Shown here: piece after piece, positions 10,367-22,815 of the stretch
Numbering within the stretch: position 1 is the stretch's first letter
Layout of the letters: every line of letters begins with the position of its first letter
Origin: Algibacter pectinivorans
GTDB lineage: Bacteria > Bacteroidota > Bacteroidia > Flavobacteriales > Flavobacteriaceae
Reading direction: 5' to 3'
Length of the DNA stretch: 64,000 nucleotides
NCBI RefSeq assembly: GCF_900112595.1
Contig: NZ_FOMI01000007.1
Coordinates: 76,078-140,077 of the forward strand
Translations under genes and position numbers: made by a program
The notes under the pieces: generated by a model
Told to the model about the DNA's origin: nothing
Seen by the model: only the letters and a program-made list of their open reading frames with translations
Database searches by the model: none

Positions 10367-11788
10367 TTACTCCATAACAAAGTACTCTACGTCAAAACGT
10401 GTTTTATGCATTAACTGCTCAATCTTCTTTACTATTTCTGGATACATCTTGGCTACATTATTTGTCTCTCCTTTATCTACAGTTAGATCATAAAGTTCTA
10501 ATCTAGCTTTTGGATTTTTAGCTATACCTTGTCTTACTGCTTTCCACTTACCCATTCTAAGAGCCTGACTTTCAAAGGCGTTTCTTTTTTTAGGGTCGTC
10601 TCCCACTTTCCATCCATAATTATATTTAAAAAATTCCCAATAAAGAAAATCATGTTCTTTTTGCTCTTTCCCTTGTAACTCATTTACAAAAGATATACCA
10701 TCTATATTTTTAGGAGTTTCTATACCGGCAATATCGCAAGCAGTAGGTAAAAAATCTGAAAAATCGGACACTAAATTACTTGTTGTACCAGGCTTAATAT
10801 TACTTGGCCAACGCACAATCATTGGTGCTTTTATTCCGCCCTCGTAAAGGTCCCTTTTAAACCCTTTAGATGGTCCATTACTATCGTAATACTTATTTAC
10901 ATTTGGAGTAGGCCCATTGTCACTTGAAAATATTATTATAGTATTTTCATCTATATTATAAGCTTTAAGCTGGTTAATAATTTTTCCAATATCACTATCC
11001 ATCCTTGTAATCATTGCTGCATAATTTTTAATAGGTTGCGGCATGTCCAAATCTGTATAAGGTGCATCATCTGGTACTTGATACTTTCCATGCGGAATGG
11101 TGTATGGCAAGTATAAAAAGAAGGGGGATTCTTTATGTTCTTTAATAAAGTTTAAGGCTTTTCCCGTAAAAAGATCATGACTATATTGTAATTCTTGATT
11201 GTTAGCATTTTTTTCTAACACGTATTTTTCTTCATTTTCCCATAAATAATTTGGATAATATTCATGTGCATTTCGTTGATCTAGATAACAAAAGGAATAA
11301 TCAAAACCTTGGCTATTTGGGCCTCCTACCGATTTTGGACCTCCTAATCCCCATTTACCAATTACTCCCGTATTATACCCCCCTTTATTAAGTAATTTTG
11401 CTACGGTTATAGTGTTTTCTGGAATAGCTAAATTCCCCTCTTCTTGTATTGAAAAATTACCTCTAATATATGCATGAGCGGTATTTAACCCAGTCATTAA
11501 TACGCCTCTTGATGGTGCACATACCGTACTACCAGAATAATGTTCTGTAAAACGTATGCCTTCGCTTGCCATCCTATCTAAAACAGGAGTTTTAATAATT
11601 TTTTGTCCATAAGACCCCAAATCTCCATATCCCATATCGTCGGCAAGGATATAAATAATATTTGGTTTACTTAGTGCTTGCTTATTATCCTTTTCAGAGG
11701 TAGTCATCTTACAAGACTGGCAAAAAACAACCATTAAAACTAAGATTGCATTTATGCTTTTTGTTTTATTTTTTATGTAAATATTCAT
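10367..11788 (-). CDS. S1-family (type I) sulfatase, lipoprotein
   Basis: This is a formylglycine-dependent sulfatase that would remove sulfate esters from a polysaccharide or oligosaccharide. I choose the ATG at 11788 (473 residues), because the longer frame uses TTG and the ATG leads into a lipoprotein signal ending VFCQSC. The metal-binding PNIIYILADDMGYGDLG and the modification motif VCAPSRGVLMTGL (C-x-P-S-R, canonical, Cys converted to formylglycine) are present. GVIGKWGLG, the central SSDNGP metal motif and a C-terminal RMGKWKAVRQG segment follow. Length and motif order are normal. The maturase (anSME) gene is not in the window. The SulfAtlas subfamily, and so the substrate, cannot be set by eye. 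It lies 16 bases upstream of the toroid gene and follows a second sulfatase. Confidence 0.93.
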   Translation of the reverse strand: MNIYIKNKTKSINAILVLMVVFCQSCKMTTSEKDNKQALSKPNIIYILADDMGYGDLGSYGQKIIKTPVLDRMASEGIRFTEHYSGSTVCAPSRGVLMTGLNTAHAYIRGNFSIQEEGNLAIPENTITVAKLLNKGGYNTGVIGKWGLGGPKSVGGPNSQGFDYSFCYLDQRNAHEYYPNYLWENEEKYVLEKNANNQELQYSHDLFTGKALNFIKEHKESPFFLYLPYTIPHGKYQVPDDAPYTDLDMPQPIKNYAAMITRMDSDIGKIINQLKAYNIDENTIIIFSSDNGPTPNVNKYYDSNGPSKGFKRDLYEGGIKAPMIVRWPSNIKPGTTSNLVSDFSDFLPTACDIAGIETPKNIDGISFVNELQGKEQKEHDFLYWEFFKYNYGWKVGDDPKKRNAFESQALRMGKWKAVRQGIAKNPKARLELYDLTVDKGETNNVAKMYPEIVKKIEQLMHKTRFDVEYFVME

Positions 11789-11889
11789 TTTTGTTTTTTT
11801 GTTTGGTAATAAATTAATTATAGAAAGAATTAACTTTAAACTAAAACAAGGCAAACGCTAAGTGGATATAGGTTTACATTGTTTTAATA

Positions 11890-13365
11890 TTACATGCCAT
11901 CATCCCCTAATAAGGTCGCTTTCCAATATTCTAAATAATCTTCATCTGATATATTTTCAGATAGACCTTTGGCCTCCATTTTCTCTTTAAATTTGCCCTC
12001 CATAAGTTTAGCCGCAAAAGTTATTTCCTGGGGGTTTTCAGGATATGTTCCGAGGTCTACTTTTTCTAACCATTTATTTAGCTCTTTTTTTAGTTCATTT
12101 TTTTCAGCGCTATATTTTTTAGAATCGGCTAAGTTATTTAACTCAAAAGGATCTGCAATTAAATCATAAAATTCTTCTGAAGGTCTGTAATTGCTAAAAA
12201 ACCGAGCTTGTTCCTTATTAAGTTCTCCTTTTTCAAACATAACTTGCATTAGTGTTAAAACAGGGTAAAAATTCTTTTTGTAGGCATTAAACTGAGTGTA
12301 TGGCCTATCAGTATAAAAATTTCTAATATATTTAAATTTTTCACTTCTTATCATACGAATTCTATCTACTGTTTCGTCCCTACGATCTCTCATACTGTAA
12401 ACAAAATTGCGTTTAAAATCATTATTTAAAAAATCATGCCCTTGAATATATTTGGGAATAGGTAGATTAGCTATTTTTAAACTAGTAGGTGCCAAATCTA
12501 AATTATTAATTAATTGATCATTTACTGTCCCTGGTTTAATTTTTTCAGGCCAGCGGACTATAAGTGGTGTATTAATACCCGAATCGTACAAAAATTGTTT
12601 TGATCTTACCATTGGTCTTCCTTGATCCCCAAGAAAAAACACTACAGTATTTTTAGAGAGTCCTTGCTTGTCTAGTCTATTTAGTATTTCGCCAACTTCT
12701 TTATCAACATATTGAACCGTTTCTAAATACATAGCCCAATCCTTCTTAGCAATGGGATGGTTAATATAATAAGGTGGCAGTTTTACATAATTGGGGTTTA
12801 TAGGATGTACTGAATCCTCTAAAAATGGTCTGTGAGGGTAAGAGATTTGTATTTGAGAGAAAAACGGCTGTTCTTTTTCTCTATTTTCCCATGATGCGCC
12901 ATTAAAAAGGTTTTCTTTAGAATGAATAAAATTGTAATCTGTTTTACCCTTATTGGTCACATAATACCCTGCTTGTTTAAAATATTCGCTAATTGGTTTT
13001 ACTGGGTTTGGTAATGAATCTTTAAACTGCTTACGGTGTTGGTGGCAATCAATACTTACAGGGTACATACCTGTTATCATAGAGGAACGACTTACCGAGC
13101 AAACTGCAGCTACTGTAAACATATTAGTGTAACGTGCTCCTTGAGAGGCGAGTTTATCTATATTAGGAGTATGAATTAAATTGTTTCCATAACACCCTAA
13201 ATCAACACCTAAATCGTCTGCAATAATCCATAAAATATTTGGTTGATTTTGCGATGTTTTATCATATTTAGTTAAGTCATTGCTACTTTTACTAGAATTT
13301 GTATTTAAGCATGAAACCATTGTAAATAAAATTCCTATTTTTAAATATTTAAATAGTTTAGGCAT
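11890..13365 (-). CDS. S1-family sulfatase with unusual C-S-V-S-R motif, lipoprotein
   Basis: This is a second type I sulfatase. I prefer the ATG at 13365 (491 residues) over a GTG at 13404 because it gives a compact lipoprotein signal, MPKLFKYLKIGILFTMVSC. Metal-binding PNILWIIADDLGVDLGCYGN and the activation motif AAVCSVSRSSMITGMYP are visible. In that motif the third position is Val where most sulfatases have Pro or Ala. PHRPF and FFLGDQGRP motifs provide further active-site residues. The overall layout recalls sulfamidase-like S1 enzymes more than arylsulfatases, but I would not fix a subfamily. The GTG start would overlap the end of the GH2 gene by 11 bases; with the ATG there is a 28-base gap. 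The tight spacing indicates one transcript with the GH2 gene. Confidence 0.9.
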   Translation of the reverse strand: MPKLFKYLKIGILFTMVSCLNTNSSKSSNDLTKYDKTSQNQPNILWIIADDLGVDLGCYGNNLIHTPNIDKLASQGARYTNMFTVAAVCSVSRSSMITGMYPVSIDCHQHRKQFKDSLPNPVKPISEYFKQAGYYVTNKGKTDYNFIHSKENLFNGASWENREKEQPFFSQIQISYPHRPFLEDSVHPINPNYVKLPPYYINHPIAKKDWAMYLETVQYVDKEVGEILNRLDKQGLSKNTVVFFLGDQGRPMVRSKQFLYDSGINTPLIVRWPEKIKPGTVNDQLINNLDLAPTSLKIANLPIPKYIQGHDFLNNDFKRNFVYSMRDRRDETVDRIRMIRSEKFKYIRNFYTDRPYTQFNAYKKNFYPVLTLMQVMFEKGELNKEQARFFSNYRPSEEFYDLIADPFELNNLADSKKYSAEKNELKKELNKWLEKVDLGTYPENPQEITFAAKLMEGKFKEKMEAKGLSENISDEDYLEYWKATLLGDDGM

Positions 13366-13393
13366 AATAAGTTTAGTTGATTTTAATTGAGTT

Positions 13394-16588
<3,195 letters not shown>

Positions 16589-17324: not shown

Positions 17325-17347
17325 TTATTTAGAATGATTCTTGATAA
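17325..17347 (+). promoter_or_regulatory. Fur-like iron box 1
   Basis: The sequence is an inverted repeat around G17336: TTATTTAGAAT, G, ATTCTTGATAA. It matches the symmetric pattern TTATTTAGAAT-n-ATTCTAAATAA at all but two positions. That pattern is what I recall for Fur-type boxes in flavobacteria, not something I could look up. Its right edge overlaps a consensus -7 element, which fits repression of the downstream operon when iron is plentiful. Confidence 0.55.
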
Positions 17348-17364: not shown

Positions 17365-17387
17365 TTATTTTTAATGAGTCTAAATAA
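17365..17387 (+). promoter_or_regulatory. Fur-like iron box 2
   Basis: TTATTTTTAATG followed by AGTCTAAATAA matches the same 23-base symmetric pattern at 20 positions. Its centre is 40 bases from the centre of box 1, close to four helical turns. It covers the likely transcription start, so binding here would block initiation. Confidence 0.5.
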
Positions 17388-17574
17388 AAACAAGTAGTTT
17401 TAACAACTACACTTATTACAATACAAACCATCAGTCGTGAGACAAAAAAAAAGAAAATTGCAAATTATTTTATTGTAACACAAGAGTCTAAACTTTTAAT
17501 AAAAATTTAAAATAAAACATTTTACATCTAATAAATTAATAACAAAATTTTAAAAACACCCATATAATAAAAAT

Positions 17575-19068
17575 ATGACTAAATTAATCCCCCTAGTATG
17601 CTCAATATTATACACATTAAATGTGCTAGCACAAGATGACAATATATTGAGAGATAGAAAATTTTGGGCAAAAAACCCCAATTTAGAAACCATTAAACAA
17701 ACGGTTAACGCTGGACACAGTCCTACACAACTAACATCTTCTGGTTTTGATGCCGTTACCAGTAGTATTTTTGCAAAGGCAAATATTGATATTGTAAAAT
17801 ATTTATTAAGCTTTAAAGAGAATAAACCCAATAAATTAACCCACGACGGACGTACATATCTATTTTGGGCGGCCTATTCTGGTAATTTAGAGCTTGTAAA
17901 TTATTTATTAAACCATGGCGCACGTGTTGATATTATTGACGATAAAGGAAATTCACCTTTAATTTTCACCGCAGCCGCAGGAGAAACAAATACTAAAATT
18001 TACGATGCTTTAATTTCAAAAGGTGCAAATGTTAAATATGAAACTAATAAAAATGGAGCAAATGCCCTTTTATTATTAATCCCTAAATTATCAGATTTTG
18101 AAATCGTTGAATATTTTGAGTCTAAAGGCATTAGCTTAAAAAGTAAAGATAATTACGGTAATGGTGTATTTAACTATACGGCACAAACTGGTAATATTAA
18201 AATGTTAAAAAAACTAGTTGCAAAAGGCATTGCTTATAACACCGTAAATACAGAAGGTGGAAATGCCTTTATCTTTGCAAGTCAAGGCAGCCGAAGACAT
18301 TCAAACGGTATAGATGTTTATAATTATTTAGAAAGCCTGGGTATTAATCCAAATATAACAACTACCGAAGGAAAAAACCCTTTAATTAATGTTGCTTCAA
18401 ACACTAAAGACACCGGAATAATTGATTACTTTATAAAAAAAGGATTAAACCCTAATGCTGCAGATAAAGATGGTAACACTCCCTTTTTAAAAGCAGCACA
18501 ATCTAATAACCTAGAAATATTACAATATCTATTTAAATTAACTAAAGACATCAATTTAGTTAATAATGATGGGCAATCTGCCTTAACTTTAGCTGTACAG
18601 TATAATAAACTAGAAATAGTTAATTATTTATTAGCACAGAAAGCTAATGCCCAAATAGTAGATAACAAAGGAAATAATTTAGCATACTATTTAGTAAATG
18701 CTTACGTACCTAGAGATAAAGCGAATTTTTATAAAAAAGGTAAATTACTTACCGATAATAATGTAGATTTTTCAGCCATACAATCAGGTAATAATACGCT
18801 TTATCAAATAGCCATTGAAAAATTAGATTTAGAACTACTTAAATTTTTAGAACCCTTAAAAATAGACATTAATGTTATTAACAACGACGGATTGTCTGTA
18901 TTGCACCTAGCAGCCATGAAATCTAAAGATGATTCCATTTTAAAATATCTATTAGAGCAAGGTGCCAATAAAAAGGCATTAACAGAATTTGACGAATCGG
19001 TTTATGATTTAGCACAAGAAAACGAACTTATTAAAGCTAACGCTATAAATATTACTTTCTTAAAATAA
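17575..19068 (+). CDS. Exported ankyrin-repeat protein
   Basis: This 497-residue protein begins with a cleavable signal peptide (SILYTLNVLAQ), so it acts in the periplasm or is secreted. The rest is nearly all ankyrin repeats, about ten, such as DGRTYLFWAAYSGNLELVNY, DGNTPFLKAAQSNNLEILQY and DGLSVLHLAAMKSKDDSILK. Ankyrin arrays bind proteins and have no catalytic residues; none are seen here. It is the first gene of an operon, six bases before the DUF2271 gene and upstream of a membrane flavo-haem reductase, so I infer a scaffold or receptor role in that redox system. A tandem iron-box region precedes it. Repeat identity is secure; its partner is unknown. Confidence 0.88.
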   Translation: MTKLIPLVCSILYTLNVLAQDDNILRDRKFWAKNPNLETIKQTVNAGHSPTQLTSSGFDAVTSSIFAKANIDIVKYLLSFKENKPNKLTHDGRTYLFWAAYSGNLELVNYLLNHGARVDIIDDKGNSPLIFTAAAGETNTKIYDALISKGANVKYETNKNGANALLLLIPKLSDFEIVEYFESKGISLKSKDNYGNGVFNYTAQTGNIKMLKKLVAKGIAYNTVNTEGGNAFIFASQGSRRHSNGIDVYNYLESLGINPNITTTEGKNPLINVASNTKDTGIIDYFIKKGLNPNAADKDGNTPFLKAAQSNNLEILQYLFKLTKDINLVNNDGQSALTLAVQYNKLEIVNYLLAQKANAQIVDNKGNNLAYYLVNAYVPRDKANFYKKGKLLTDNNVDFSAIQSGNNTLYQIAIEKLDLELLKFLEPLKIDINVINNDGLSVLHLAAMKSKDDSILKYLLEQGANKKALTEFDESVYDLAQENELIKANAINITFLK

Positions 19069-19074
19069 TTTAAT

Positions 19075-19569
19075 ATGAAAACCCTTTTTAAACAAACCAA
19101 ATACATTACCATACTATCCCTTTTATTAGTTACTTTTTTAGCTTTTACAGCTAAACCTAACACCTATAAATGTATGGTACAAATGATTAATTATAATGGT
19201 GAAGGCGCTTATGTGGTTATATCACTAATAAATCCAGAAGGAACGTATGAAAAAACACTTTATGTACAAGGCGATGATGATGAATGGTACCACGATATAG
19301 CAGAATGGTGGCGTTTTTACGGTAAAACCAAAACAGACATAGATGCTATTACAGGTGCTACAATTGGCGGAGGTGAGCGCGCTATAAATGTTATTGAAAT
19401 AGAACCAGATAAAATTAACACAGGTTATAGTTTAAGGTTTGAAACTGCTGTTGAAGACAAAGAATATTTCATTAAAGATGTAGAATTCCCATTAACTACC
19501 CAAAACATAAAGCTTAAACACGAAGGTAAAGGATATATAAGATACATACGTATGATGCCTCAAAATTAA
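19075..19569 (+). CDS. DUF2271-type periplasmic protein with flavinylation-like motif
   Basis: This 164-residue protein has an N-terminal hydrophobic export segment (residues 11-26, ILSLLLVTFLAFTA). Residues 90-96 read DAITGAT, matching the D-x-x-[S/T]-G-A-T sequence in which ApbE-type transferases link FMN covalently to the final Thr in RnfG and NqrC proteins. That would be Thr96 here. The surrounding fold, with AYVVISLINPEGTYEKTLYV and a WYHDIAEWWR segment before the motif, fits my recollection of DUF2271. It lies between the exported ankyrin gene and a PepSY-flavodoxin-reductase gene, so a periplasmic electron acceptor or carrier role is likely. No apbE gene is in this window. Family assignment is from memory, without a domain search. 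Confidence 0.72.
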   Translation: MKTLFKQTKYITILSLLLVTFLAFTAKPNTYKCMVQMINYNGEGAYVVISLINPEGTYEKTLYVQGDDDEWYHDIAEWWRFYGKTKTDIDAITGATIGGGERAINVIEIEPDKINTGYSLRFETAVEDKEYFIKDVEFPLTTQNIKLKHEGKGYIRYIRMMPQN

Positions 19570-19687
19570 GAACAAACCTCTTTAATGTCTTGCCCTTGCT
19601 TTATAATTCTAAGGCGATACATTAAAAATTTTTATTACCAAAAATCTTAAAAAACGCTTTGCTAAAAGTTATACAAATATTCCTGTA

Positions 19688-21871
19688 ATGACGATTTCTA
19701 TTTGGAGACTTAGCCACCTTATTTTAGCTATTTCCTCTTCATTATTTATAATTCTAGCTGCTTTAACCGGTACAATCTTAGCATTCGAACCAATTTCGAA
19801 TAAGCTAGAGCCGTTTGCCGTAAAAAATGCTTCAGCACTTAGTCTTTCTAGCACTATAGAAAATCTAAAAAACGAATACGATGAAATTATTAATATAGAA
19901 ATTGATAAAAATAATTTTATAACAGCCTCGGTAGTAACAAAACAAGGGCAAAGTGATAGTTTTTATCTTAATCCGTTTACAGCTAAAAAAATTGGAAACA
20001 CAATCGAAAAGGCACCTATTTTTCGTTTTACTACCAACCTTCATAGATCGTTATTTTTAAAATCTACCGGACGTGCGATAGTTGGTATAGTTTCCTTTGT
20101 ATTGTTTTTAATGGCTATAACTGGCATTATTTTAATTGCAAAACGACAAGGTAGTCTTAAGGATTTTTTTTCAAAAACTATAAAAGAAGATTTTAACCAA
20201 TACTATCATGTTCTTTTAGGTAAATACACTTTAATACCAATAATAATAGTTACTCTTACCGGTGTTTTTTTGTCTTTGGAAAGGTTTTCATTTTTACCCG
20301 AAAGTAAAACCCCTCACATTAAACAACAACAAACCTCAATTAGTACACCAAACACCGAAAGTTTTAATATTTTCAACACCTTAACTTTAGGGGATATAAA
20401 AGGGGTTGAATTTCCTTTTTCTGATGATATTGAAGATTATTTCATTATAAAATTACATGATAAAGAACTTTATGTAAACCAATATAATGGACAAATAGTA
20501 AGCGAAAAACTAGATAATTTTAAAGCTCTTGCTACGCATTGGAGCTTAGTTTTACATACTGGGCAAGGGTCTATCTTATGGTCTATCTTACTACTGTTAA
20601 CTAGTATTAGCATTTTATTTTTTGTGTATTCGGGGTTTTCTATGGCCTTAACAAGAAAAAATAACACTATAAAAATTAAAAATACTTTTAATAAAAATTC
20701 TGCCGAATATATAATTCTCGTAGGTTCTGAAACCGGAAGTACTTTTAAATTTGCTAAACTACTTTTTAACGCTTTATTGGCTTTAGGAAAATCTGTTTAC
20801 ATTTCGGAGTTAAACCAATATACTACCTATAAAAAAGCTACAAACCTATTGGTACTCACCTCAACGTATGGTGAAGGTAATGCTCCTGATAATGCTAAAT
20901 ATTTTGAAAAACTTATACAAGATACGCCACAAGAAAACACACTGCAATATGCTGTAGTTGGTTTTGGTTCTTTAGCGTACAAAGGTTTTTGTAAATACGC
21001 TATACTGGTAGATGGTCTGCTTCAACAACATAAAAAATGTACACCTAGCTTAACACTACATAAAATAAATAATAAATCGTTTACAGAGTTTAAAAATTGG
21101 GCAGATACTTGGGCTAAAAGTAAAAATTTAGCACTTCAAGTAAACCAGCCTAAAAACGAACCTAAACAAAAAATAACACCTTTTAAAGTAGTTACCCGCA
21201 TCAACTTAAATAGTGATTATTCATTTTTACTAGAAATACAACCTTTAAAAAAAATAGCTTTTAAGTCTGGAGATTTGCTTTCCATAACTCCTAAAAACGA
21301 AACAGTAGCAAGACAATATTCCATTGGTAAAACAGGTAAAACTATTTTATTAAGTATAAAAAAACATGAGTTTGGGGTATGCTCTAACTATTTAAACAAT
21401 TTAAAATTAAACGATATGTTATCTGCCAATATTGAACAAAACACAGCCTTTCATTTTCCTAAATCGGCAAAGGAAGTTATAATGATTTCTAATGGTACAG
21501 GAATTGCCCCATTTTTAGGTATGATTACAGATGAAAATTTAAAACATTCTAAAAACTATTTATTTTGGGGAGGACGAACAAATGCGTCTTACAAAATGTA
21601 CTCCAAATATATAGATGATGCTTTTTATAATAAAAAGCTATCTGGTGTTTATTTAAGTTTTTCGCAAGGCGAAAGTCAAAAAAAGTATGTTCAAAATGCG
21701 TTGATGGAAAAAGAAGATTTAGTTTCTAAAGTTTTAAAAAACAACGGTATTGTAATGATTTGCGGTTCGGTTGCCATGCAAAATGGAGTTTTAAAAACAT
21801 TAGAGCATATTTCAAGAGATAAACTTAATACACCGCTAAACATGAAACTTATAAAAACTGACTGCTACTAA
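19688..21871 (+). CDS. PepSY-TM / flavodoxin / ferredoxin-NADP reductase fusion (transmembrane reductase)
   Basis: This 727-residue protein joins a membrane electron-transfer module to a cytoplasmic flavoreductase. Four membrane helices lie near residues 10-32, 125-150, 172-200 and 291-320, with PepSY segments between them. Conserved His residues (RLSHL, NLHRSL, YYHVLLGKY, HWSLVLHTGQG) are suited to haem ligation. A flavodoxin domain starts near 345 (VGSETGSTFKFAK, STYGEGNAPDNAKYF). The C-terminal reductase has the FAD motif RQYSIG and the NAD(P) motif ISNGTGIAPFLGMI. The expected flow is NAD(P)H to FAD to FMN to haem and on to the periplasm, as in ferrisiderophore and similar PepSY reductases. 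The adjacent DUF2271 protein is the likely partner, and upstream iron boxes support an iron role. The final acceptor is not shown by sequence. Confidence 0.9.
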   Translation: MTISIWRLSHLILAISSSLFIILAALTGTILAFEPISNKLEPFAVKNASALSLSSTIENLKNEYDEIINIEIDKNNFITASVVTKQGQSDSFYLNPFTAKKIGNTIEKAPIFRFTTNLHRSLFLKSTGRAIVGIVSFVLFLMAITGIILIAKRQGSLKDFFSKTIKEDFNQYYHVLLGKYTLIPIIIVTLTGVFLSLERFSFLPESKTPHIKQQQTSISTPNTESFNIFNTLTLGDIKGVEFPFSDDIEDYFIIKLHDKELYVNQYNGQIVSEKLDNFKALATHWSLVLHTGQGSILWSILLLLTSISILFFVYSGFSMALTRKNNTIKIKNTFNKNSAEYIILVGSETGSTFKFAKLLFNALLALGKSVYISELNQYTTYKKATNLLVLTSTYGEGNAPDNAKYFEKLIQDTPQENTLQYAVVGFGSLAYKGFCKYAILVDGLLQQHKKCTPSLTLHKINNKSFTEFKNWADTWAKSKNLALQVNQPKNEPKQKITPFKVVTRINLNSDYSFLLEIQPLKKIAFKSGDLLSITPKNETVARQYSIGKTGKTILLSIKKHEFGVCSNYLNNLKLNDMLSANIEQNTAFHFPKSAKEVIMISNGTGIAPFLGMITDENLKHSKNYLFWGGRTNASYKMYSKYIDDAFYNKKLSGVYLSFSQGESQKKYVQNALMEKEDLVSKVLKNNGIVMICGSVAMQNGVLKTLEHISRDKLNTPLNMKLIKTDCY

Positions 21872-21881
21872 AACCAAAAGT

Positions 21882-22238
21882 ATGTGTACTAAAATTAAAA
21901 TCATATCAAAAGTAAAAAGTGGAGAATTGTATTTATGTCGTGATTGCCATGTTTATCATCTAGAATTTAATAATATTTATTTAGAGTTTAATGCCAAAGA
22001 ATTTAAACAATTTAAAAACTTTATTCTGGATCTTGAAATTGAATATTGGGAACATAAATATGCATCGGCAAGAGTAAAACGCAAAATACCCATTCCATCT
22101 ATGCAACAAAACCTTGTTTTAATGTTTAACAGAGAGGAAATCAAAGAATTAAAATCCCTTTTTACGAATACCACAAACAGTACTTTTACAAGAGATTTAA
22201 AAACAAAAGATATAGATTATACACTAATATTAAATTAA
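21882..22238 (+). CDS. Small CxxC protein, possibly DUF6686-like
   Basis: This 118-residue soluble protein has no signal peptide. Residues around 19-22 form CRDC in GELYLCRDCHVYHLEF, a pattern that could hold a metal or a disulfide. The rest is a short alpha/beta sequence with LEFNAKEFKQFKNFILDLE. It begins 10 bases after the PepSY reductase and ends two bases before a related gene, so it belongs to the same operon. I recall similar short Bacteroidetes proteins annotated as DUF6686 beside iron genes, but I am not certain of the number. No function can be assigned. Confidence 0.7.
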   Translation: MCTKIKIISKVKSGELYLCRDCHVYHLEFNNIYLEFNAKEFKQFKNFILDLEIEYWEHKYASARVKRKIPIPSMQQNLVLMFNREEIKELKSLFTNTTNSTFTRDLKTKDIDYTLILN

Positions 22239-22240
22239 AC

Positions 22241-22603
22241 ATGGACGATATTACAGTAATTTATAAAAATAATTTTGGTTTAGTTTTTTACTGGAAGCGC
22301 TGCGCTGCAAAAAATTACAAAAAATTAAACCTAGTTTTTAATAATACTGCGTTACATTTAACAGAGGTTGAAATGCTTATATTTTCCGGACATATTGAAA
22401 CCGCTTTAAATAAATTAATAAAAATTAATAATACTAGCGACCAAGAACACCTTATGCATTTGGAAACTCCAACGCCTCAAGTAAGTTTTATTGTTAACTA
22501 TGAAGAGTTAATTTGTGTACAAAACCTAGTAGAAGGTGCTTTATTTGAGCTCGAATTAATTACTTGTTTAGACTATATTCATAATCAAAATAAAAGTAGC
22601 TAA
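22241..22603 (+). CDS. Small protein, diverged paralogue of the preceding CxxC gene
   Basis: This 120-residue protein shares its layout with the gene before it: FGLVFYWKRCAAKNYKKLNL aligns with GELYLCRDCHVYHLEFNNIY, followed by an N-rich turn, LHLTEVEMLIF and a C-terminal VNYEELICVQNLV segment. Only one of the two Cys positions is kept. The two-base gap marks it as the last gene of the PepSY operon. I infer a tandem duplication with divergence. Function is unknown. Confidence 0.65.
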   Translation: MDDITVIYKNNFGLVFYWKRCAAKNYKKLNLVFNNTALHLTEVEMLIFSGHIETALNKLIKINNTSDQEHLMHLETPTPQVSFIVNYEELICVQNLVEGALFELELITCLDYIHNQNKSS

Positions 22604-22674: not shown

Positions 22675-22715
22675 ATTTTAAAAAAAAACACCATTAATCA
22701 AAGATTAACGGTGTT
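22675..22715 (-). terminator. Terminator after the tRNA-Pro/tRNA-Ser unit
   Basis: On the minus strand, AACACC-G-TTAATC pairs with GATTAA-T-GGTGTT around a three-base loop with one mismatch, followed by a run of about nine T. It follows tRNA-Pro and faces the end of the PepSY operon, so it may serve both directions. Confidence 0.7.
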
Positions 22716-22740
22716 TTAATATTGTCTATTCCCAGACTTG

Positions 22741-22815
22741 TCGGGGTGGCAGGATTCGAACCTGCGACCTCCGCGTCCCAAACGCGGCGCGATAACCGGG
22801 CTACGCTACACCCCG
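22741..22815 (-). tRNA. tRNA-Pro (anticodon UGG)
   Basis: The minus strand folds into a 75-base cloverleaf. Acceptor arms CGGGGTG and CACCCCG close it with discriminator A. The anticodon stem CCGCG/CGCGG holds the loop TTTGGGA with anticodon TGG, and the T-arm carries GGTTCGAATCC. The CCA end is not encoded. Confidence 0.97.

Follow-up and report, generated by a model that had tools for sequence, protein, structure and literature searches.

An ankyrin-DUF2271-PepSY operon of Algibacter pectinivorans and its probable role as an iron-regulated reductase module

Gene content of the operon

The subject of this report is a five-gene operon of Algibacter pectinivorans (Bacteroidota; Flavobacteriaceae), which lies in a stretch of 64,000 nucleotides of contig NZ_FOMI01000007.1, assembly GCF_900112595.1 (positions 76,078 to 140,077, forward strand); this whole stretch is referred to below as the window, and coordinates are counted from its first letter. 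Five co-directional open reading frames (ORFs) span 17575-22603 on the forward strand, separated by gaps of 6, 118, 10 and 2 bp, in the positions and order given by an initial annotation of this DNA that had been made from the sequence alone. The first (17575-19068) encodes an ankyrin-repeat protein of 497 amino acids (ANK; Pfam Ank_2, 9.7e-50), which has a hydrophobic N-terminus and is probably exported. The second (19075-19569) encodes a DUF2271 protein (Pfam 4e-40), probably periplasmic and predicted to carry a covalently bound flavin mononucleotide (FMN); its predicted flavinylation motif, DAITGAT, occupies residues 90-96 (19342-19362, forward strand) and ends in Thr96. The third (19688-21871) encodes a protein referred to here as PSY, in which PepSY_TM (PF03929, 1.9e-35), Flavodoxin_1 (1e-15) and NAD_binding_1 (1.9e-9) are joined in one ORF; a match to FAD_binding_6 scored 18.5 bits, below the cut-off of 21.1. 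Both the DUF2271 protein with its motif and the fusion of PepSY, flavodoxin and reductase parts had been recognized in the initial annotation. The operon ends with two small genes, optional members both, for a DUF6686 protein with a CxxC motif that is probably cytosolic (21882-22238; Pfam 3.4e-47) and for a second, DUF6686-like protein (22241-22603; Pfam 9.4e-4, below cut-off) that has no CxxC in the window copy. All five genes are on the forward strand.

Conservation of the ANK, DUF2271 and PSY genes

The distribution of these genes was followed in a family set of 120 genomes drawn from the Flavobacteriaceae and in a named set consisting of the best 80 of 555 confirmed relatives, ranked by ankyrin similarity; the sets have six identical ankyrin rows in common and are therefore not independent. 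ANK and PSY are found together in 40 of the family genomes, PSY alone in 4, ANK alone in none and neither in 76 (Fisher p 1.2e-27, which is not a p-value for independent draws since the genomes are related). The corresponding counts for ANK and DUF2271 are 39 with both, 1 with ANK only, 6 with DUF2271 only and 74 with neither, and the totals are 45 genomes with DUF2271 (44 over the cut-off), 40 with ANK and 44 with PSY. The only ANK genome without a DUF2271 match (G015) is an assembly of 350 contigs, and there the matches to ANK and to PSY both begin at the end of a contig. Among the 45 family loci, i.e., the 47 listed DUF2271 matches minus the window's own and a match of 21.3 bits in G096, 38 carry the three genes in order on the same strand, 37 of them with no other gene in between (L052 being the exception). 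The order ANK, DUF2271, PSY is kept in all 80 named loci, with gaps of less than 500 bp in all but L116, a result that is conditional on the presence of ANK because these loci were selected by ANK similarity. The co-occurrence and the conserved gene order on which the initial annotation had staked its proposal are thus both observed.

The family loci that depart from this pattern do so in different ways: L040 has DUF2271 alone, L056 lacks ANK, L067 lacks ANK and PSY, none of the window proteins found a match in L072, L074 lacks PSY, and L075 and L076 lack ANK and have a shortened PSY from which the reductase part is missing. In L118 and L125 two ORFs together make up PSY, either through assembly error or as a real split, and genes of XusAB type are inserted between DUF2271 and PSY in L052 and L116. 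A wider search of 395 genomes of the phylum, with three candidates scored per genome, found ANK in 29, DUF2271 over the cut-off in 33 and both in 28; ANK stood alone in G494 (a partial match, 8.7e-41) and DUF2271 alone in G267, G306, G467, G498 and G506. All but one (G370) of the 29 phylum genomes with ANK belong to the same family or class. The closest of the named relatives, taken from the best 80 of 555, is Algibacter amylolyticus, whose ANK is 79% identical; the other same-genus genome searched (G044) gave no match for ANK, DUF2271 or PSY.

A predicted route for electrons across the inner membrane

Hydropathy indicates four transmembrane-like segments in PSY, and two of its four invariant histidines lie near each side of the membrane. 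These residues (His10, His119, His174 and His290) are present in 115 of 115 PSY sequences of at least 700 amino acids, 109 of them distinct, as are Cys435 and Cys726. A cytosolic flavodoxin part would require the N-terminus to be inside, which would place His10 and His174 toward the inner and His119 and His290 toward the outer side, and the four histidines would fit the need of two transmembrane haems. PSY in this respect has the hallmark of FoxB-like proteins, two haem sites with two conserved histidines each, the haem being predicted from sequence. Its flavodoxin and reductase part is homologous to P450 reductase, CysJ and the reductase of nitric oxide synthase in PDB, with nitric oxide synthase as the best sequence match of the flavodoxin part, and it has a conserved S...K.YVQ stretch that would point to NADPH as the donor. 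The transmembrane route for electrons put forward in the initial annotation gains support from the histidines and from the flavodoxin and NAD(P)H domains. The same features bear on the view that PSY is a siderophore permease and not a reductase, as has been proposed for PepSY proteins of Alteromonas, where PepSY_TM proteins are predicted inner-membrane permeases (PMC7190382). We consider such a role highly unlikely for PSY, as the fusion to a flavodoxin and an NAD(P)H domain, together with four invariant histidines, fits electron transfer, and as XusC and HiuB are treated as likely reductases in what later papers say of them (PMC13142918, PMC12424826).

A plausible periplasmic acceptor is the DUF2271 protein. 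All 126 DUF2271 copies compared have D-x-x-x-G-x-[S/T] at the place of the motif, with Ser or Thr at the modified position, and 97 of them have the strict form [S/T]GA[S/T]. The window copy, with DAITGAT, has the [S/T]GA[S/T] motif of PepSY-like flavinylation systems, and the PepSY gene (PF03929) that directly follows it provides the arrangement by which clusters of this kind are defined, namely a PF03929 or PF16357 gene clustered with one for flavinylation (PMC8238504). A search of PDB sequences with the DUF2271 profile returned only weak rows, the best with E 0.19. The flavinyltransferase gene apbE, which had been expected elsewhere in the genome, gave a single match in A. pectinivorans, on another contig (C14) and 3.1 kb after a gene read as nqrF. 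A Fur-type box was also seen upstream of nqrA on this contig (L203/L077), with apbE soon after the nqr operon. Given this proximity, one ApbE may serve both Nqr and the window DUF2271.

Fur-type boxes and probable iron regulation

A matrix trained on 75 divergent gaps between HmuR and DUF6607 genes, taken from the family and named sets, describes a 23-bp palindrome that has the form TTATTT-N11-AAATAA in 67 of the 75 aligned gaps. The two best sites in the 64 kb of the window both precede the operon, namely box 1 at 17325-17347 (TTATTTAGAATGATTCTTGATAA; 19.6 bits; two mismatches to TTATTTAGAATNATTCTAAATAA) and box 2 at 17365-17387 (TTATTTTTAATGAGTCTAAATAA; 27.1 bits; three mismatches), and the next best site scores 8.7 bits. 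No site of 27.1 bits was reached in 2000 random sequences with the base-to-base transition frequencies of the upstream region, and a like pair of boxes lies upstream of ANK in A. amylolyticus. Over the whole 3.65 Mb genome the pattern, with at most three mismatches, occurs at 12 sites, two of them at the operon, and its reversed control at none. The 12 sites amount to nine places. At seven of these the neighbour is connected with iron, haem or respiration, namely the window operon, a DUF4856-imelysin-HTTM operon, a XusAB-type pair, hemA together with an AraC regulator, nqrA, a cytochrome c gene (by Pfam) and what was named by eye an sdh-like operon. In 74 of the 80 named loci a site of at least 16 bits lies upstream of DUF6607, of a third receptor or of ANK, a count that is partly circular because the matrix was trained on gaps from both sets; outside the training gaps are the promoters of the window and of A. 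amylolyticus as well as the ANK-only, TBDR55 (a TonB-dependent receptor, or TBDR, label), imelysin and DUF6686 promoters.

The window motif contains the Fur box of Riemerella anatipestifer, ATTTAGAATTATTCTAAAT. Promoters of that species that hold ATTTAGAATTATTCTAAAT were shifted with Fur in electrophoretic mobility shift assays, in a paper whose abstract prints an E. coli-type box (PMC5609570), and Fur is reported to bind a like box at rhuB (PMC10986502). The two boxes suggest that the operon is repressed by Fur and, together with the haem and siderophore receptor neighbours found in relatives, they support the link to iron made in the initial annotation. As an observation on the same genome, contig C7 (L204) has a DUF4856-imelysin-HTTM/VKGC operon with two Fur-type boxes and the apparent start of a TonB receptor gene, an operon that recurs beside the core in other genomes.

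Receptor genes beside the core

Neighbour labels depend on the stretch that was fetched for each locus. In the named set the core is accompanied by DUF6607 in 69 of 80 loci, by a TonB receptor of HmuR type in 60 and by HmuY-type genes in 61 (representatives by Pfam). A second kind of receptor adjoins the core in 9 of the 45 family loci and is followed in 8 of the 9 by a DUF4374-like protein. Its homologue in A. pectinivorans (72% identical; L207 on contig C12, unlinked to the window) matches XusA of Bacteroides thetaiotaomicron (PDB 9GBC, residues 3-800, 6.9e-87), and it is for this reason that such neighbours are called XusAB-type here; an AraC-type regulator was seen beside them in some loci. 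Genes of the imelysin operon are also among the neighbours. When the receptor labels are followed along a tree of 121 ANK rows, 17 changes are counted for Hmu, 5 for Xus and 3 for the third receptor, which is fewer than in shuffles and more than one each, and it appears from these repeated changes that the core stays together while the receptors change.

The frequency of Hmu genes raises the question of whether the module is specific for haem, its electrons reducing haem iron or helping to strip the iron after uptake of the HmuR/HmuY type, with any use of siderophores secondary. This we find somewhat doubtful: prevalent as the HmuR-type receptor and HmuY-type gene are in the named loci, the core is paired with XusAB-type genes in other loci, and A. 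pectinivorans keeps the whole core without a match to HmuY, where the absence is weak as the controls also gave none, or to DUF6607, which matched in 47 of 120 genomes. Within the genus, HmuYR-DUF6607 genes lie beside the core in Algibacter pacificus and A. lectus and not in the window or in the stretch from A. amylolyticus.

The neighbours also speak to a role in the repair of periplasmic proteins or in redox defence, such as the reduction of sulfoxides, for which control by iron would only reflect oxidative stress. A periplasmic ankyrin is linked to catalase in Pseudomonas. In addition, MsrQ-like cytochromes are said to resemble PepSY cytochromes (PMC11334425). No methionine-sulfoxide-reductase or catalase family was found among the 20 representative neighbours scanned, and the recurrent neighbours are TonB receptors, HmuY, DUF6607, DUF4374-like and imelysin-operon genes, and we consider a defence role very unlikely.

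Relation to described systems

The flavinylation of DUF2271, PepSY-like systems, their fusions to NAD-binding domains (1077 PepSY-like genes) and a role in iron have been published (PMC8238504). The window operon has in common with those systems a PepSY_TM protein, a DUF2271 protein with a flavinylation motif and the link to iron; it differs in that an ankyrin gene precedes DUF2271, apbE is unlinked, and DUF6607 and DUF6686 recur, whereas apbE is often a member there, as is a secreted DUF4198, and the word ankyrin is not found in the main text of that paper. Some relatives have XusA/XusB-like genes next to the core, A. pectinivorans has them at an unlinked place, and PSY would be the counterpart of XusC in the XusABC system of B. 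thetaiotaomicron as reported in PMC13142918; unlike what is reported of XusC, PSY combines its PepSY part with flavodoxin and NAD(P)H domains in one protein and is accompanied by ANK and DUF2271. The systems HiuABC of Caulobacter and FoxB of Pseudomonas (PMC12424826, a preprint) are likewise built around a PepSY protein of the inner membrane, a ferri-siderophore reductase for which two haem sites with His ligands are predicted, in an operon regulated by Fur; genes for DUF2271, an ankyrin protein or a fused reductase are not part of hiuABC as described there. Insertions in a PepSY/DUF2271 operon of Caulobacter are reported to lower fitness in ethylenediaminetetraacetate (PMC12004947).

A further likeness is with R. 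anatipestifer B739_0173-0177, listed in the order TonB receptor, hypothetical protein, "Ankyrin", "Predicted periplasmic protein" and "Nitric oxide synthase" and given as induced by iron limitation (fold-change column 3.31, 3.64, 2.41, 3.06 and 1.05; PMC5429918), with Fur reported to bind the B739_0173 promoter (PMC7976709). The gene order is that of the window operon, and PSY too finds nitric oxide synthase first in PDB. Literature searches gave, for four of the five locus tags, only those two papers, in which B739_0174-0177 do not appear as a subject of study. Full-text searches joining ankyrin, PepSY and iron returned only a study that is, by its title, on arthritis; those joining ankyrin, HmuY and Flavobacter returned only the Riemerella list, and no full-text match named DUF6607 or DUF6686. 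The earlier remark that the full set had not been described as one system holds for the literature searched, with the reservation that PMC8238504 already covers the PepSY/DUF2271 core and that PMC5429918 lists a Riemerella cluster of the same order. The ankyrin partner, the exchangeable receptor modules and the link of DUF6686 and DUF6607 to iron are apparently unreported, though one published supplementary table may list the same genes.

Interpretation

The operon is, in our judgment, probably a Fur-repressed reductase module of TonB-dependent uptake of iron in the form of siderophore or haem. NAD(P)H, probably NADPH, would reduce the flavin adenine dinucleotide (FAD) of PSY's C-terminal domain, and electrons would pass from FAD to FMN in the cytosolic flavodoxin domain. 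They would then cross the inner membrane by way of two bis-histidine b haems, ligated by His10/His174 on the inner and His119/His290 on the outer side, to the FMN that ApbE is predicted to attach covalently to Thr96 of DUF2271. The flavinylated DUF2271 would reduce a ferric chelate or haem brought into the periplasm by an outer-membrane receptor, and the released iron would feed a ferrous transporter. ANK would most likely act in the periplasm as a scaffold, keeping DUF2271, PSY or the loaded ligand in one assembly. As HmuY and DUF6607 were not found in A. pectinivorans, the receptor function may fall there to the XusA/XusB-like pair of contig C12, which is not linked to the window.

Several observations weigh against this interpretation or parts of it. 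With respect to flavinylation, 29 of the 126 DUF2271 copies depart from the published strict [S/T]GA[S/T], mostly by Glu for Ala, and apbE is present in 118 of the 120 family genomes, with or without DUF2271, so that its presence in A. pectinivorans lends no special support. DUF2271 occurs without ANK in 6 of the 120 genomes (in G096 only as a match below cut-off) and PSY without ANK in 4, and L056 has a HmuYR-DUF6607-DUF2271-PSY-DUF6686 cluster with no ANK at the usual place, from which it follows that ANK is not needed in every case; the PSY of L075 and L076, which ends after the flavodoxin part, lies beside DUF2271 and an imelysin operon. Two of the nine boxed places have no recognised iron neighbour, the box at B739_0173 is named as an E. 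coli-type sequence and not as one of the window type (PMC7976709), and the equivalence of B739_0174-0177 with the window genes is drawn from gene names and order only. The XusB-like neighbour is a sub-threshold DUF4374 match (17.8 bits in L058, against a cut-off of 25 bits), and the A. pectinivorans copy, 79% identical to the L058 relative, gave no Pfam or PDB match. Finally, no receptor gene adjoins the operon in the window or lies within the 8 kb fetched from A. amylolyticus.

The part played by ANK can be taken further only tentatively. Its AlphaFold2 model is a solenoid of helix pairs (mean predicted local distance difference test score, pLDDT, of 93.8), for which a fold search returned ordinary ankyrin-repeat structures only and indicated no function. 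In 50 aligned rows K87, T89, H90, D91, R93, Y95 and W98 are invariant, as are T470, E474, D478-A480 and E482-E484 near the C-terminus, and the conservation of this THDxRxYxxWA stretch and of the C-terminal cap, over and above the repeat positions, suggests a role in binding. It is possible, though we would not press it, that ANK is a dedicated, co-evolved third subunit whose solenoid patch and cap bind the flavinylated DUF2271, a ferric ligand or both, in a receptor-independent "reduction platform" for plug-in TonB receptor modules (HmuYR-DUF6607, XusAB and others). Rows for Legionella ankyrin effectors (NCBIfam) were rejected, being far below the cut-off and reflecting the common repeats.

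Small proteins and flanking features

The initial annotation had counted two small CxxC-type proteins in the electron path. Both proteins are present, but CxxC (C19-x-x-C22) is found in the first only, the last having cysteines at 21, 92 and 109, although CxxC does occur in certain of its relatives (L045, L048 and L067). A place in the electron path is not supported for either, as there is one CxxC, no export signal was seen in the sequence of either protein, they are DUF6686 or DUF6686-like, and they are the least conserved part of the operon, present in 25 (type a) and 10 (type b) of the 80 named loci. In L083 (12373), L112 (12218) and L140 (12148), DUF6686 follows PSY and has a Fur-type box of its own 37-53 bp upstream, and coordinates place DUF6686 next to DUF6607 in G110 and G113; these boxes and this adjacency link DUF6686 to iron, with nothing tying it to electron transfer. 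A PDB profile search gave weak rows only (best E 0.49), and the AlphaFold2 model of the first protein (pLDDT 79.8) had no Foldseek match at E of 0.001 or below. Fold comparison by VIA gave a weak DUF155/PUR-like match (best Z 7.0, to 2it9; about 6 for PUR repeats), which may reflect only a common arrangement, and a nucleic-acid-binding role would be a guess. DUF6686 is possibly a family of iron-regulated cytosolic regulators.

Upstream, on the opposite strand, lies a gene of beta-galactosidase type (13394-16570), beside which two mutually similar adjacent genes of about 500 amino acids each were seen at 10367-13404. The interval from the second Fur-type box to the start of ANK (17388-17574) is about 160 bp longer than in A. 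amylolyticus, and no function was recognised in it; a scan for sigma-70 promoters was uninformative (31 sites, 31.4 expected). Downstream of the operon are tRNA-Pro (22740-22815) and tRNA-Ser, with a hairpin between operon and tRNA-Pro (22685-22717, listed on the reverse strand) as a possible 3' boundary, for which the evidence is weak, there being two such matches in the region and 2.8 expected from shuffles.

Implications for the Flavobacteriaceae

To our knowledge, how flavobacteria free iron from chelates or haem in the periplasm is largely an open question. The core described here names a likely path for the electrons and ties four uncharacterised families (ANK, DUF2271, DUF6607 and DUF6686) to iron. 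Should the proposed "reduction platform" prove true, it would give periplasmic ankyrins a new role and the Flavobacteriaceae a general step of iron release. Flavobacteria are common in marine and host-associated settings, and the cluster very probably serves the release of iron where iron is scarce.

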